A DNA stretch of 21,997 nucleotides from contig URYE01000044.1 in the NCBI GenBank assembly GCA_900551945.1, forward strand, positions 1 to 21,997, read 5' to 3'. This stretch comes from an uncultured Eubacterium sp. GTDB taxonomy: Bacteria > Bacillota > Clostridia > Lachnospirales > Lachnospiraceae. The position numbers and the translations under genes were made by a program. How positions within the stretch are numbered: position 1 is the first letter of the stretch; every line of letters begins with the position of its first letter. This document shows, in pieces, positions 411 to 21,893 of this stretch. The notes beneath the pieces were generated by a model. The model was not told where the DNA came from, did not search any database, and saw only the letters and a list, made by a program, of their open reading frames with translations.

Positions 411-519
411 ACAGTTTTTCTCCTTTCGCAAACTCGAAGTTTGAACTTCTGTATGTATATTATGCCATATATTTTACCAAAATACCATATTTTCGGTAAA
501 TATATATTCTATATCTGAC

Positions 520-10750: not shown

Positions 10751-12865
10751 TTACCACTTTAACTTACGAAGAACAACTGCTGATGTCTTTCGCATACCAA
10801 TCTCAAGACAACCACCCGGAAGTGAATATCCAAGTCTTTCAGTACTAAAGCCACCGTCAAATGTAACCATTACCTGTTCAACATCGTCTTTATCTGTAAG
10901 TCCTATCTCCCATGCTCTTATCTTAACTCTTCTTTCTTCTTCAGAATTATTTACAATTACAATAATAGCATCATCTTTAGTAAATCTGCCATACGCAATC
11001 AAATTATATTCTGCAGCAAGACTCTTATATGAGCCATACATAAGTGCTGGGCTGTCTTTGTGTACTTTAATCATTGCCTTATGAAATGCAATAAGCTCAT
11101 TATCTTCATTGCCCCATGGATAAGTTCTTCTATTATCTGGGTCTGTCCAACCACATACACCGGCTTCATCGCCATAATATATAGTTGGTGCTCCCGGCCA
11201 TGTCATCTGTATTACTACAGCTTCCATAAACACATACTTATTAACATTCATATTAGCGGCTTCTGCCCCTGCATATGCCACTCTACCTACTGTTCTGTTA
11301 GTTCTAGTAAGAAATCTTGAATGGTCGTGGTTAGACAATTCATTCATAGATATAGCATAAGCCTGTCCGCCCATTCTTGACATATTGTGGTGCATCGCAC
11401 CAAAAAAATTATTTGCATTGCCAAGCATATCTTGTCTAAATTCATCACTATGCTTTTGCATACCTGTAAGAAACCATGTTACAGGCTCCATAAATGCGTC
11501 ATAATTCATAATAGTATCCCATTCACCGCCATGAAGCCAGTTATATGAGTCACCGTAATTCTCCGCAAGAATAATTGCTTCTGGATTAGCTTCTTTAACC
11601 ACATCTCTAAATCTTCTCCAAAAATAGTGATTATATTCTTCACTATGCCCTAAATCAGTCGCAACGTCAAGACGCCAGCCATCTACGTTATAAGGCGCAG
11701 AAACCCATTTTTTACCAATTCCTAATATATACTCTTCTAGTGCCTTTGAATCCTCGTAATTAAGCTTAGGAAGTGTATCATGCCCCCACCAGCCGTCATA
11801 AGAGCTGTTGTCTGGCCACTGGTCACTATAAAACTTAAAAAAGTCGTGATATGGACTGCTATATGTTTCATAAGCTCCAGCTGCATAATCTTCTTTACTT
11901 GAGCTATAAATGTGTTCTCTATCAAGCCATTTGTTAAATGAACCACAGTGATTAAACACACCATCAATTATAACTTTCATTCCCTTTGAATGAATATATT
12001 GTACAAGGTCTGCAAAATATTTATTACTAGCTTCAAGATTAGCTTTATTTGTAACTCTATCTTTGTACCTTGTAGCATTAACATTATTATTATCGCCCGG
12101 TGCTAGAAGCTCTCCCTCATCAGATACTATAACACCAATATGTGGGTCAATATAATCATAATCTTGTATATCATATTTATGGTTAGATGGTGATACAAAT
12201 ATAGGATTAAGGTATATTACATCAACACCTAAATCACTAAGATAACCTATCTTATCCCATACTCCCTTTAAATCTCCACCATAAAACTCTCTTATTCCCA
12301 TTGTGGCAGGATATTTATTCCAATCCTTAACTTGATTAACATGTTCGCCTATATAGCTATATTCGTCATCTAATACTGTATTAGACTTATCTCCATTACA
12401 GAAACGGTCAACAAATATTTGATACATAACTGCACCCTTTGCCCACTGTGGAGTACAAAATCCCGGTATGATTTCAAAATTATAATAAGGATTAAGTTCT
12501 TGTGTTGCCCCTATCTGATTATAATAACACGTTGCATTGCCAGACCTTACTTTATAATAATAATATATCTTATTCTCATCAACAGTTATCTTGGCTTCAT
12601 AATAGTCGAATTTGTAATCACTTTCTACTTTTGTCATTATGTGTTCAACATTATTAATATATACATAAGCATTATCTACATTATATCTTCCCGTTCTTAA
12701 TCTAAGCGTAACCTCGTCATTTGGCTTTGGTTCACATGGACTTCTGTAGCTTTCTGTTGCGTCACTAAATAATGCCCTTGTATTCAAAATGGGTCTTACA
12801 TTACACATATAAATTAATTTTTTCTCATCATCTGCAAGGCTTTCAACCATTTTAACTATCTTCAT
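10751..12865 (-). CDS. Cytoplasmic neopullulanase/cyclomaltodextrinase-type GH13 enzyme
   Basis: From the ATG at 12865 this is a 704-residue glycoside hydrolase of family 13. The N-terminal about 130 residues fit the CBM34-like domain of the neopullulanase, cyclomaltodextrinase and maltogenic amylase subgroup. The (beta/alpha)8 barrel follows. Conserved regions are all present: DGVFNHCG (Asp301-His306), DGWRLDVA (nucleophile Asp400), ILAEN (acid/base Glu435) and SNHDHS (Asp514), plus LPKLN, close to the MPKLN of this subgroup. There is no signal peptide, so it would act on imported maltodextrins, cyclodextrins or pullulan fragments. A TTG six bases upstream (12869-12871) is open in frame but only 2 bases from the AAGGA Shine-Dalgarno, so ATG is preferred. 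A -10 box TATAAT lies 35 bases upstream. Confidence 0.92.
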   Translation of the reverse strand: MKIVKMVESLADDEKKLIYMCNVRPILNTRALFSDATESYRSPCEPKPNDEVTLRLRTGRYNVDNAYVYINNVEHIMTKVESDYKFDYYEAKITVDENKIYYYYKVRSGNATCYYNQIGATQELNPYYNFEIIPGFCTPQWAKGAVMYQIFVDRFCNGDKSNTVLDDEYSYIGEHVNQVKDWNKYPATMGIREFYGGDLKGVWDKIGYLSDLGVDVIYLNPIFVSPSNHKYDIQDYDYIDPHIGVIVSDEGELLAPGDNNNVNATRYKDRVTNKANLEASNKYFADLVQYIHSKGMKVIIDGVFNHCGSFNKWLDREHIYSSSKEDYAAGAYETYSSPYHDFFKFYSDQWPDNSSYDGWWGHDTLPKLNYEDSKALEEYILGIGKKWVSAPYNVDGWRLDVATDLGHSEEYNHYFWRRFRDVVKEANPEAIILAENYGDSYNWLHGGEWDTIMNYDAFMEPVTWFLTGMQKHSDEFRQDMLGNANNFFGAMHHNMSRMGGQAYAISMNELSNHDHSRFLTRTNRTVGRVAYAGAEAANMNVNKYVFMEAVVIQMTWPGAPTIYYGDEAGVCGWTDPDNRRTYPWGNEDNELIAFHKAMIKVHKDSPALMYGSYKSLAAEYNLIAYGRFTKDDAIIVIVNNSEEERRVKIRAWEIGLTDKDDVEQVMVTFDGGFSTERLGYSLPGGCLEIGMRKTSAVVLRKLKW

Positions 12866-12899
12866 AACCAATCTTCCTTTTTTCCCAAATATATACTAT

Positions 12900-12978: not shown

Positions 12979-13148
12979 AAAAAGGACAGCCGGGGAAGGC
13001 TGTCCTTTTCGGAGAAGGTATTTCACTTATTATGGGGTGTAGCAAAAAATATATAATGTATTGGGGGGTTTTTACATTGATTATAATAACATTTTGCCCA
13101 TAATAAGTGTTACCAAACATCACTAAATTTCAAAAATATTTTTGTATA
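12979..13148 (-). ncRNA. Candidate structured small RNA with C-rich loops, ending in an intrinsic terminator
   Basis: Read on the minus strand, GGTA (13111-13114) plus CACTTATTATGGG (13097-13109) pair perfectly with CCCATAATAAGTG (13024-13036) plus TACC (13017-13020). Inside, CAAAA pairs with TTTTG, and AATGTA with TACATT around a loop containing CCCCCC. Eight bases after this stem comes a terminator hairpin GGACAGCC/GGCTGTCC with loop TTCCCC and a five-T tail (12979-12983). A -35/-10-like pair, TTGTAT (13178-13183) and TATTGT (13155-13160), 17 bases apart, could start the transcript near 13148. No protein-coding frame with a Shine-Dalgarno is seen in it. C-rich exposed loops are typical of Firmicutes sRNAs that bind Shine-Dalgarno sequences; that role is inference. 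Confidence 0.4.
12980..13009. terminator. Strong bidirectional intrinsic terminator
   Basis: AAAAGGACAGCC and GGCTGTCCTTTT are perfect inverted repeats around a 6-base loop, with A and T tracts on the two sides. It can end transcripts from either direction and closes the candidate small RNA on the minus strand. Confidence 0.85.
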
Positions 13149-13390
13149 TTTTGCACAATACATTCTTTGTATTCAGTATACAATCGCAACATAATCCTAT
13201 TTAATTATAACTTAGTGCTACATACTTTCTATCATTATTAAAAGTACATTTTGAATCAATCTTGACACTAACTATTAACTACTATTCATAGCAAGCTATT
13301 AAAGTTCTAACCGTTAATATTTTACAGTAATCATATATCATCTTCCGACTTTTGATATACCATCTTTTTAGCAGAGCAGCTAAACAACTT
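13149..13390. other. Non-coding stretch between ftsH and the structured element
   Basis: These 242 bases are AT-rich, with no open frame that looks coding. The only notable points are the weak promoter-like pair at 13155-13183 and a small TTTAGC/GCTAAA hairpin at 13365-13382 that lacks a T-run on the minus strand. I see no clear ftsH terminator. Confidence 0.4.
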
Positions 13391-15244
13391 TTACACTTCA
13401 ACTGTATCTGTATCATTTTTTTCTTCAAAAAGAGCTTCAAATTCTTCTCTTGTAATCTTTTCTTTTTCAAGAAGAAGATTAGCACTTTTTTCAAGGATGT
13501 CCATATTATCTGTTATTATCTTTCTTGCCTTTTCATAACAATCATCAATAATACTCTTAACTTCCATATCTATCTGACCAGCAACATCTTCGCCATAAGG
13601 TCTTGAGTGAGCTAAATCTCTTCCGATAAATACTTCATCGTTACTATCATCGTAATTAATAAGACCAAGCTTTGAAGAAAAACCATACTTTGTAACCATA
13701 GCTCTTGCTGTTTCTGTTGCCTGCTTAATATCTTGTGAAGCACCTGTTGTAATATCATCAAATATAAGTTCTTCTGCTATACGGCCACCAAGACTTACGA
13801 TGATATTTTGAAGCATTTTACCTCTGGTATTAAACATCTCATCTTTTTCAGGAAGTGGCATAGTATATCCTGCTGCCCCCATACCTGTTGGTATTATTGA
13901 CACTGTATGAACAGGGCCTACATCTGGAAGCACATGGAATAATATAGCATGACCTGACTCGTGATAGGCTGTAATCTTCTTTTCTTTTTCAGATATAATC
14001 TTACTCTTCTTTTCAACACCTATTCCAACTTTAACAAAAGCATATTCTACATCTGAATTTGAAATGTATCTTTTCTTAGCCTTTGCTGCATTAATTGCCG
14101 CTTCATTGAGAAGATTTTCAAGGTCTGCACCTGTAAAACCGGCTGTTGTTCTTGATAATGAGTCCAAATCAACATCATCGCCTAATGGCTTCTTAGCCGC
14201 ATGAACATTAAGTATCTCAAGACGACCTTGAACATCTGGCGCACCTACTACAACCTTTCTGTCAAATCTTCCTGGTCTTAATATAGCAGGGTCAAGAATA
14301 TCAATTCGGTTAGTTGCTGCCATTACGATAATTCCTTCATTTACACCGAAACCGTCCATCTCAACTAACATCTGGTTAAGTGTCTGCTCACGTTCATCGT
14401 GACCGCCACCCATACCAGTTCCTCGTCTTCTAGCAACTGCATCTATTTCATCAATAAATACAATACATGGTGCGTTCTTTTTAGCTTCTTCAAATAAATC
14501 TCTTACTCTTGAAGCACCTACACCAACAAACATTTCAACGAAGTCTGAACCTGAAATGCTAAAAAATGGAACACCTGCTTCTCCTGCAACAGCTTTTGCA
14601 AGAAGTGTCTTACCAGTTCCCGGAGGACCTGTAAGAATAACACCCTTTGGTATTCTAGCACCCAATTCAGTATATTTTACAGGGTTCTTTAAAAAGTCAA
14701 CAATTTCTTCAAGTTCTTCTTTTTCTTCATGGAGTCCAGCTACATTTTTAAATGTAACTTGTTTTCCCATATCATCTATAAGCTTTGCTCTACTTTTACC
14801 AAAATTCATCATTTTAGTACTTGAACCGCCACCTGATTGTCTTGAAGTTAAAAATACTATAAGCCCTATTGTAATTATACACATAAGAAATGGCCATAAC
14901 ATACTTATCCATGTGCTTTGTCTTACAACATCTCTTACTTGATAATCAACATTACTATTGTCAAGAAATGCTTCAACCTCATTAATATCAGATACATTAA
15001 GAGTCTTCTCTGACACTCCATCTGTTGTAAACTTTACTGTAAGCACACCTGTTGGCACTTCTGAATTTTGTTTAATAATTACACTTGATACATTTCCCTT
15101 TTCAACATCATTTTTAAAGTTCTTATAAGTATAACTTGATGTTGTAGAGGACGTTCTGGCAAATACCATATAAAATATTGCTATAACTGCTAGTAATATA
15201 ACATAAACACCAAAACCGCCAAATCTGCTTTTGTTACTATTCAT
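13391..15244 (-). CDS. ftsH: ATP-dependent zinc metalloprotease FtsH
   Basis: FtsH is a membrane-bound AAA+ protease that extracts and degrades membrane and regulatory proteins as a hexamer. The 617 residues show two membrane spans (about 11-28 and 113-133) around an extracytoplasmic segment. The AAA module has Walker A GPPGTGKT (206-213), Walker B IVFIDEI (261-267), the pore motif MFVG (238-241) and second region of homology with Arg323 and Arg326. The protease domain has the zinc site HESGH (428-432) and the third ligand Asp504 in [10 protein letters not shown]. The C-terminus ends in a short acidic tail. It follows hpt by 52 bases, the classic tilS-hpt-ftsH order of Firmicutes. The Shine-Dalgarno is only AGGCGA. 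In Bacillus, FtsH loss blocks sporulation. Confidence 0.97.
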
Positions 15245-21721: not shown

Positions 21722-21893
21722 CCGTTACTGAAAACTTATAAAAAGTTATAAACTTTTATGTTTCATTCCTATTTCATCGTGTATGCTTTTGTACTAAATA
21801 AATTTAGTTACTACTTACAGTTCCTTGTACACTCCATAGGCGTAAATTCCGAACTAACGTATTCGTACACATCTGTATTAACTTTTTCGTGTT
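21722..21893 (-). mobile_element. Right end of a TnpB element; probable omegaRNA-coding region
   Basis: Downstream of the tnpB stop are about 170 non-coding bases running up to spoVT. In IS605/IS1341-type elements this segment encodes the omegaRNA scaffold that ends at the right end, with the guide taken from flanking host DNA. Here it holds inverted repeats, CTAAAT/ATTTAG and TTATAA/TTATAA (21736-21751), then TTTTCAGTAACGG just before spoVT. I infer the right end lies near 21720-21724; the exact base is unknown. Confidence 0.5.

Follow-up and report, generated by a model that had tools for sequence, protein, structure and literature searches.

What, if anything, is encoded between ftsH and the gene downstream of it in this stretch of Lachnospiraceae DNA? 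The genes identified in the window (the whole stretch analysed, 21,997 nucleotides from an uncultured Eubacterium sp.), every one of them on the minus strand, encode a protein of SpoIIE type, TilS, a phosphoribosyltransferase, FtsH and a member of the alpha-amylase family, and a gap of 519 bases separates ftsH from the amylase gene. An earlier note had proposed that this gap encodes a regulatory small RNA of 110-170 nt, closed by a long perfect stem and exposing two C-rich loops. Our analysis supports the small RNA but not the shape that was given to it. The best explanation, which we consider probable, is that the gap contains an autonomous gene for a trans-acting Lachnospiraceae sRNA of about 97 nt, which would act by Hfq-independent base pairing through unpaired C-rich motifs. 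The locus is laid out as follows:

13391-15244, minus strand: ftsH, the upstream gene (Peptidase_M41, AAA, FtsH_ext)
12979-13075, minus strand: predicted sRNA transcript of 97 nt, with +1 at 13075 (conserved block in the 68-sequence alignment A2)
10751-12871, minus strand: alpha-amylase family gene, the downstream gene (Alpha-amylase, E 1.1e-47)

Judged by its sequence, the RNA is a separate transcription unit with a promoter and an intrinsic terminator, and its C-rich motifs are predicted to be unpaired. The predicted transcript reads, in order, GUAAAAA-CCCCCC-AAUACAUUAUAU, a short A/U-rich segment, CUACACCCCAUAA, AAAUACCUUCUCC and a covarying terminator; model R1, in which the window is itself included, matches it at 12979-13074. 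Three motifs stand out in the body:

13057-13068, minus strand: C-rich motif 1, CCCCCCAATACA, near the 5' end (conserved; mean unpaired probability 0.92)
13030-13042, minus strand: C-rich motif 2, CTACACCCCATAA (conserved; mean unpaired probability 0.91)
13011-13023, minus strand: motif 3, AAATACCTTCTCC, directly 5' of the terminator (conserved; mean unpaired probability 0.69)

The values for motifs 1 and 2 compare with 0.52 for the whole transcript in the predicted fold. Among 81 sequences selected by nhmmer with the window alone as query, motif 1 is present as CCCCAATA in 81/81 and as CCCCAATA(C/T)A in 79/81, with CCCC before AATA in every one. Motif 3 is found as AAATACCTTC in 78/81 of the same sequences, two of the three misses being cuts at contig ends. 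These counts are less biased than those from alignment A2, the rows of which were chosen by a pattern requiring motifs 1 and 3. A2 comprises 68 distinct homologues, identical duplicates and two loci where the pattern hit coding sequence (L009 and L096) having been left out; five loci missed by the pattern (L003, L018, L032, L069 and L073) all match R1. A2 has 19 invariant columns, with 18 falling within CCCCAAUA.A and AAAUACCUU. The C-run of motif 1 varies in length from 4 to 9, and a second CCCC, that of motif 2, lies between motifs 1 and 3 in 63/68 homologues. Motif 2 is gone in one clade (L001 and L116-L119), where the middle of the RNA (CUACACCCCAUAA) has been swapped for another hairpin and both ends are kept. 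Three weaker matches to the model (L069, L134 and L135) deviate at motif 1 or 3.

The conservation is confined to the unit. In the RNA body, the 14 near relatives share 88.6% identity with the window and the 53 others 83.8% (the latter including L038, which is of the same genus), vs. 68% and 61%, respectively, in the promoter region and 50-56% in flanking segments (upstream, 91-180 nt; downstream, 105-194 nt), a level that we take as the background of alignments of such A/T-rich DNA. The body is this similar despite TilS being only 32-46% identical (80 loci among the TilS matches listed). The proposal that the minus strand encodes a short sRNA, ending in a terminator, bearing unpaired C-rich motifs and shared with relatives, is thus supported by comparison of homologues, with a predicted size of about 97 nt instead of 110-170 nt.

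The unit ends in a hairpin that covaries among the homologues:

12979-13009, minus strand: intrinsic terminator hairpin and U tract (10 of 11 pairs changed on both sides)

The level of the given structure was reached by 0/500 shuffles and lies above that of every slid version of it. In the window the terminator reads AAAAGGACAGCC-TTCCCC-GGCTGTCCTTTTT, and its loop had been put forward as a second functional C-rich loop. However, the terminator part of the homologues contains CCCC in 24/68 cases and TTCCCC in only 2/68, which argues against such a role. A middle hairpin, UAUAG/CUAUA, is poorly supported, with 78.7% of cells paired and one pair with changes on both sides. In Lachnospira multipara (L038), the terminator stem is followed by no clear U tract.

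Upstream of the transcript, the homologues share promoter-like signals:

13083-13091, minus strand: extended -10, TGT TATTAT (TGTTATTAT), 7 nt before +1 (conserved box in homologues)
13108-13113, minus strand: weak -35, GTAACA (4/6 matches), with a 19-nt spacer (homologue promoters scored)
13096-13153, minus strand: conserved upstream promoter element, ACAAAAA ... TTTGGTAACACTT, a possible activator site (PWM from 68 upstream regions)

In 61/68 homologues, the G of GTA is preceded at 6-8 nt by a TGnTAnnnT-type box. A -35 with at least 4/6 matches is separated from this box by an unusual spacer of 19 nt in 40 of the 65 promoters scored and by 17 nt in 10; spacers as long as 19 nt are typical of MerR-type activation. 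With the PWM, a TTTGTG-type half-site was placed at -41/-42 in 47 of the 68 upstream regions and at -52 to -54 in the other 21; as plain patterns, TT(T/A)(G/A)TG occurs in 58/68 and CACAAAA in 32/68. The shift of the half-site corresponds to one helical turn and so points to an activator that has to face the polymerase. In 2.0 Mb of the G404 chromosome, no site of the element scored above 14 besides the one before the RNA. We infer from sequence that the sRNA gene is expressed.

The position of the promoter bears directly on the long stem by which the RNA was proposed to be closed. Its two arms are:

13097-13109, minus strand: 5' arm of the repeat, CACTTATTATGGG, upstream of the -10 (exact complement of CCCATAATAAGTG; the full pairing is not conserved)
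13024-13036, minus strand: 3' arm of the repeat, CCCATAATAAGTG, inside the transcript (exact complement of CACTTATTATGGG)

The letters are as the earlier note described them: the 13-base repeat is perfect, it is flanked by GGTA/TACC, CCCCCC lies between the arms and a terminator comes after. The 176-nt minus strand also has a low folding energy (-47.4 kcal/mol, z -6.6, with 0/200 shuffles as low), and the plus strand folds well too (z -4.5). However, the upstream arm lies 5' of the extended -10, inside the promoter element, and therefore should not be transcribed from the RNA's promoter. Nor is the full stem conserved in relatives, since none of the 67 other homologues has the complete 13-base repeat. 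When the 70 nt upstream were compared with the first 70 nt of the transcript, the longest exact pairing was 5-8 in 61/68 homologues; L106 (13) and L103 (12) pair via unrelated A/T runs and not via the repeat of the window. Remnants are seen at the equivalent place in 9/67 homologues, with 6-7 pairs in eight (CACTTA, CACTTAT or ACTTAT) and eight in L037 (TTACTTAT), since words of this kind occur in the promoter element as well as in the RNA. A 13-long match arose in 1/200 single-base shuffles of the upstream 70 nt, a post hoc figure. We take the 13-bp stem to be a coincidence between promoter element and RNA, and a 110-170-nt RNA closed by it, with two exposed C-rich loops, has in our estimation next to no chance of being the correct structure, all the more so with the terminator-loop TTCCCC kept in two sequences.

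The RNA is widespread in the family. R1 matches 221/299 sampled Lachnospiraceae genomes at E<=1e-3, which is probably a lower bound because the filters were strict and many assemblies look incomplete; both factors may account in part for the 78 genomes with no match at this threshold, and for the loci and genus genomes below that lack the RNA. Named hosts include Lachnospira multipara, Catonella morbi, Blautia parvula, Butyrivibrio hungatei, Agathobacter rectalis, Lacrimispora xylanisolvens, Roseburia hominis An869, Mobilitalea sibirica and Kineothrix alysoides. Within the closest genus sampled, to which Lachnospira multipara ATCC 19207 belongs, a search with the element DNA gave matches in 22/22 genomes at a loose E<=1, of which 20 were at E 5e-11 or better; in the remaining two (G004 and G419) there were only DNA matches at chance level.

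The place of the RNA relative to ftsH was followed in loci found through TilS. A first TilS search of genome contigs found no relative, and a second, made with an alignment of relatives, gave matches that point to Lachnospiraceae. Among the TilS matches listed, 65 loci included the complete end of ftsH and 400 nt or more beyond it, and the search for homologues between ftsH and downstream genes that the earlier note had called for found the RNA behind ftsH in 56 of these 65; most of the 56 are also in the model. The other nine loci lack it (L008, L012, L017, L028, L035, L048, L055, L061 and L067).

Beyond the family, a sample of the class gave 22 matches in 21/391 genomes at E<=0.01, 12 of these 21 genomes being already in the family sample. 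Visual inspection of ten of the 22 matches suggested that three (L137, L139 and L140) are false and that two (L136 and L138) are distant relatives. In the latter two, a 7-bp hairpin (GUGAAAA/UUUUCAC) is predicted to hold the 5' C-rich motif in its loop, which may point to an older form of the RNA.

Most matching family genomes (200/221) have a single match and 21/221 have two or more, some of them in tandem; G058 has five matches, and G166 four strong and two weak ones. Copies could be printed for 28 of 30 loci from ten multi-copy genomes. Their bodies are nearly identical and their terminators differ, even between tandem neighbours. A loose test that allowed up to three substitutions in TTTGTGnACACTT detected the upstream element in 34/34 of these copies (overlapping loci count some copies twice), though by eye it was not clear in L297 and L309.

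Is the RNA then simply a leader or attenuator of the amylase gene? The two are on the same strand in the window, and an amylase gene follows the RNA in 46/55 loci among the TilS matches listed, the aligned amylase start lying a median of 106 nt past the end of the RNA; an amylase is found behind the RNA of the distant relative L138 too. (The 55 scored loci are the 56 RNA-bearing ones less L018, which the pattern missed; the median distance from the ftsH match end to the start of the RNA in these 55 loci, again among the TilS matches listed, is 143 bases.) However, nine of the 55 loci have no same-strand amylase match behind the RNA (in eight of these nine, 1 kb or more was available), and in three of the 46 the amylase is 1.9-3.6 kb away. 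The next gene is convergent in Agathobacter rectalis, and neither ftsH nor an amylase lies within 1.5 kb in 19 of the 30 loci from multi-copy genomes. The RNA persists where the amylase is not found, is kilobases away or the next gene is convergent, and is therefore not a leader; we consider this reading very improbable. A cis-acting leader or riboswitch more generally was set aside, the RNA having no constant sense position before a regulated gene. Comparison of the homologues instead demonstrates a conserved unit with promoter-like and terminator signals, which has spread and been duplicated and is independent of the downstream gene. In Lachnospira multipara (L038 12117-14070), about 1.9 kb separates the ftsH match end from the RNA.

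Records of mobile DNA were also searched. Phage records gave no match at E 1e-5, and 1/72,556 plasmid records matched. The latter (L328, NZ_CP143948.1 51616-59709) is a 252-kb "plasmid" record of Agathobacter rectalis that carries tilS-hpt-ftsH and the RNA; it may be a misfiled piece of chromosome, since its genes look chromosomal. An IMG/VR contig (L327 1-300) begins with an apparent FtsH tail (DEFEALF...), followed by the RNA with its promoter and then by other DNA, a frame of which reads helicase-like by eye. Here, a prophage seems to have integrated directly behind the RNA.

This contig could mean that the site is at least an insertion neighbourhood, and would fit a DNA-level element in place of a functional RNA. 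A tiny coding gene is another way to account for the conservation. Against both stands the joint conservation of a promoter-like box, a body and a covarying terminator. The 4-9 range of the C-run, moreover, gives length differences that are not multiples of three, and 44/68 transcripts have no closed ORF, those in the others being of 16 codons or fewer. A coding function was dropped on this ORF evidence, and we see only a minimal likelihood that the locus is a DNA element or a coding gene, as opposed to the gene for a functional RNA.

How might the sRNA act? Base pairing is held most likely because the C-rich motifs are unpaired and the hosts have G-rich ribosome-binding sites; indeed, AAGGAG and AGGAGG lead the counts of host ribosome-binding words. 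That the RNA pairs with Shine-Dalgarno sequences is plausible from its sequence. Prediction of targets at ribosome-binding sites, which the earlier note had recommended, yielded no conserved target among the candidates followed up. The scan looked for exact complements near 1767 starts, as defined by a simple gene caller, in 2.0 Mb of one chromosome. Complements of at least 9 nt near starts were found 17 times for motif 1 and nine times for motif 3 (vs. 7.4 and 4.8, respectively, for single-base shuffles), a mild excess, and 6- and 7-mers complementary to the motifs showed no general enrichment near these 1767 starts. Two candidate targets, which from their sequences look like a sodium:solute symporter and a response regulator, were followed through the genus and are not conserved: the genes are present in 12 and 22 of the 22 genus genomes, respectively, and the match is lost in most orthologues, being kept in four and three close relatives, the query genome included. 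The negative scan means that there are few targets, that targets differ between lineages or that there is no pairing at start sites.

The last of these possibilities leads to the main rival explanation, in which the autonomous RNA would not pair with mRNAs, but bind a protein or a large complex (RNA polymerase, the ribosome or an RNA-binding protein) through its invariant segments. The near-invariant AAUACAUUAUAU stretch is longer than a simple C-rich seed requires, and near-invariant unpaired stretches longer than a typical seed, like the lack of general enrichment of complementary words at start regions and of conservation in the candidate targets, would be expected of such an RNA; multiple nearly identical copies would also suit one that titrates its partner. 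However, no protein-binding signature was recognised, the RNA is not 6S, whose gene is separate, and the C-run varies in length from 4 to 9. We regard protein binding as unlikely.

If the sRNA does pair with mRNAs, it would do so without Hfq. This protein (PF17209) was found in 0/22 genus genomes (the window's own genome is not among them), and the same search found it in 5/14 control genomes, E. coli and B. subtilis included. An Hfq-dependent sRNA was discarded as a candidate on this count.

The preferred reading of a base-pairing sRNA can be spelled out as follows. Transcription would start from the extended -10 promoter with its weak -35 and the conserved upstream element, probably an activator site, and would end at the intrinsic terminator. 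The transcript would present two or three nearly invariant, mostly unpaired segments, namely the 5' C4-9 AAUACA, the middle CUACACCCCAUAA and the pre-terminator AAAUACCUUCUCC. These would pair, without Hfq, with G-rich stretches in a limited number of mRNAs, the likeliest place being the ribosome-binding sites. We tentatively go one step further, to a possibility that we consider less likely than not: the RNA may be a core Lachnospiraceae regulator, with housekeeping-like conservation, sometimes two to five copies, its own activator site at either of two positions one helical turn apart (-42 or -53) and an Hfq-free action via its invariant 5' C-rich end. Lachnospiraceae are major members of the gut microbiota. 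If true, a dominant gut lineage, belonging to a branch in which little work has been done on sRNA regulation, would have a riboregulator common to the whole family. The RNA offers a ready handle, with named hosts, no Rfam match, duplication in some genomes and a predicted transcript of about 97 nt starting with GUAA, and a system for Hfq-free sRNA regulation.

Does the RNA belong to a known family? With Rfam 15, no family was found at the RNA locus at the gathering score, and no minus-strand match overlapped the RNA at E up to 10. In 20 other loci that carry homologues, no family was matched at the RNA either, and the only match was to an unrelated c-di-GMP riboswitch in L136 (c-di-GMP-I, 414-497, minus strand, close to the distant relative there). 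Elsewhere in the window, a RAGATH-18 RNA lies at 21766-21840 on the minus strand (73.9 bits vs. a gathering score of 44.9). No paper describing the RNA by title or abstract was found among the matches listed from the open-licence PMC literature. Passages of a C. phytofermentans start-site study mention a non-coding unit that lies downstream of a glycoside hydrolase, and state that antisense transcripts below the 200-bp library threshold would be missed (PMC5171806). We read these passages as neither confirming nor excluding the RNA (PMC5171806). As far as Rfam 15 and the searched literature show, the RNA would thus represent an undescribed family that is widespread in one bacterial family.

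Four known RNAs invite comparison. 6S RNA is likewise an independent RNA gene in the same genomes. However, the Lachnospiraceae RNA is about half the length of the 187-position 6S model (RF00013), and 6S was rejected as its identity, there being no RF00013 match to it and 6S being a separate gene in 20/22 genus genomes. CsfG is a sporulation sRNA of endospore formers. The two RNAs, compared by description, are both conserved within a group of Firmicutes, but the -10 of the Lachnospiraceae RNA is TATTAT-like. LhrC of Listeria is a multicopy C-rich sRNA, which recalls the several near-identical copies, some in tandem, in some of our genomes (the sequence relation was addressed via Rfam only). 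In contrast to LhrC, one match per genome is usual for the Lachnospiraceae RNA.

RoxS/RsaE of Bacillus subtilis and Staphylococcus aureus is, like the RNA described here, a Firmicutes sRNA with several C-rich regions; passages of one paper on RoxS describe four such regions able to pair with G-rich parts of mRNAs (PMC5419742). The Lachnospiraceae RNA differs in having no Rfam match and different motif words (CCCCAAUACA and AAAUACCUUCUC), the comparison having been made via Rfam and not directly by sequence. By analogy, and with no kinship implied, the RNA would most likely work in the manner of RoxS/RsaE, via its unpaired C-rich motifs.
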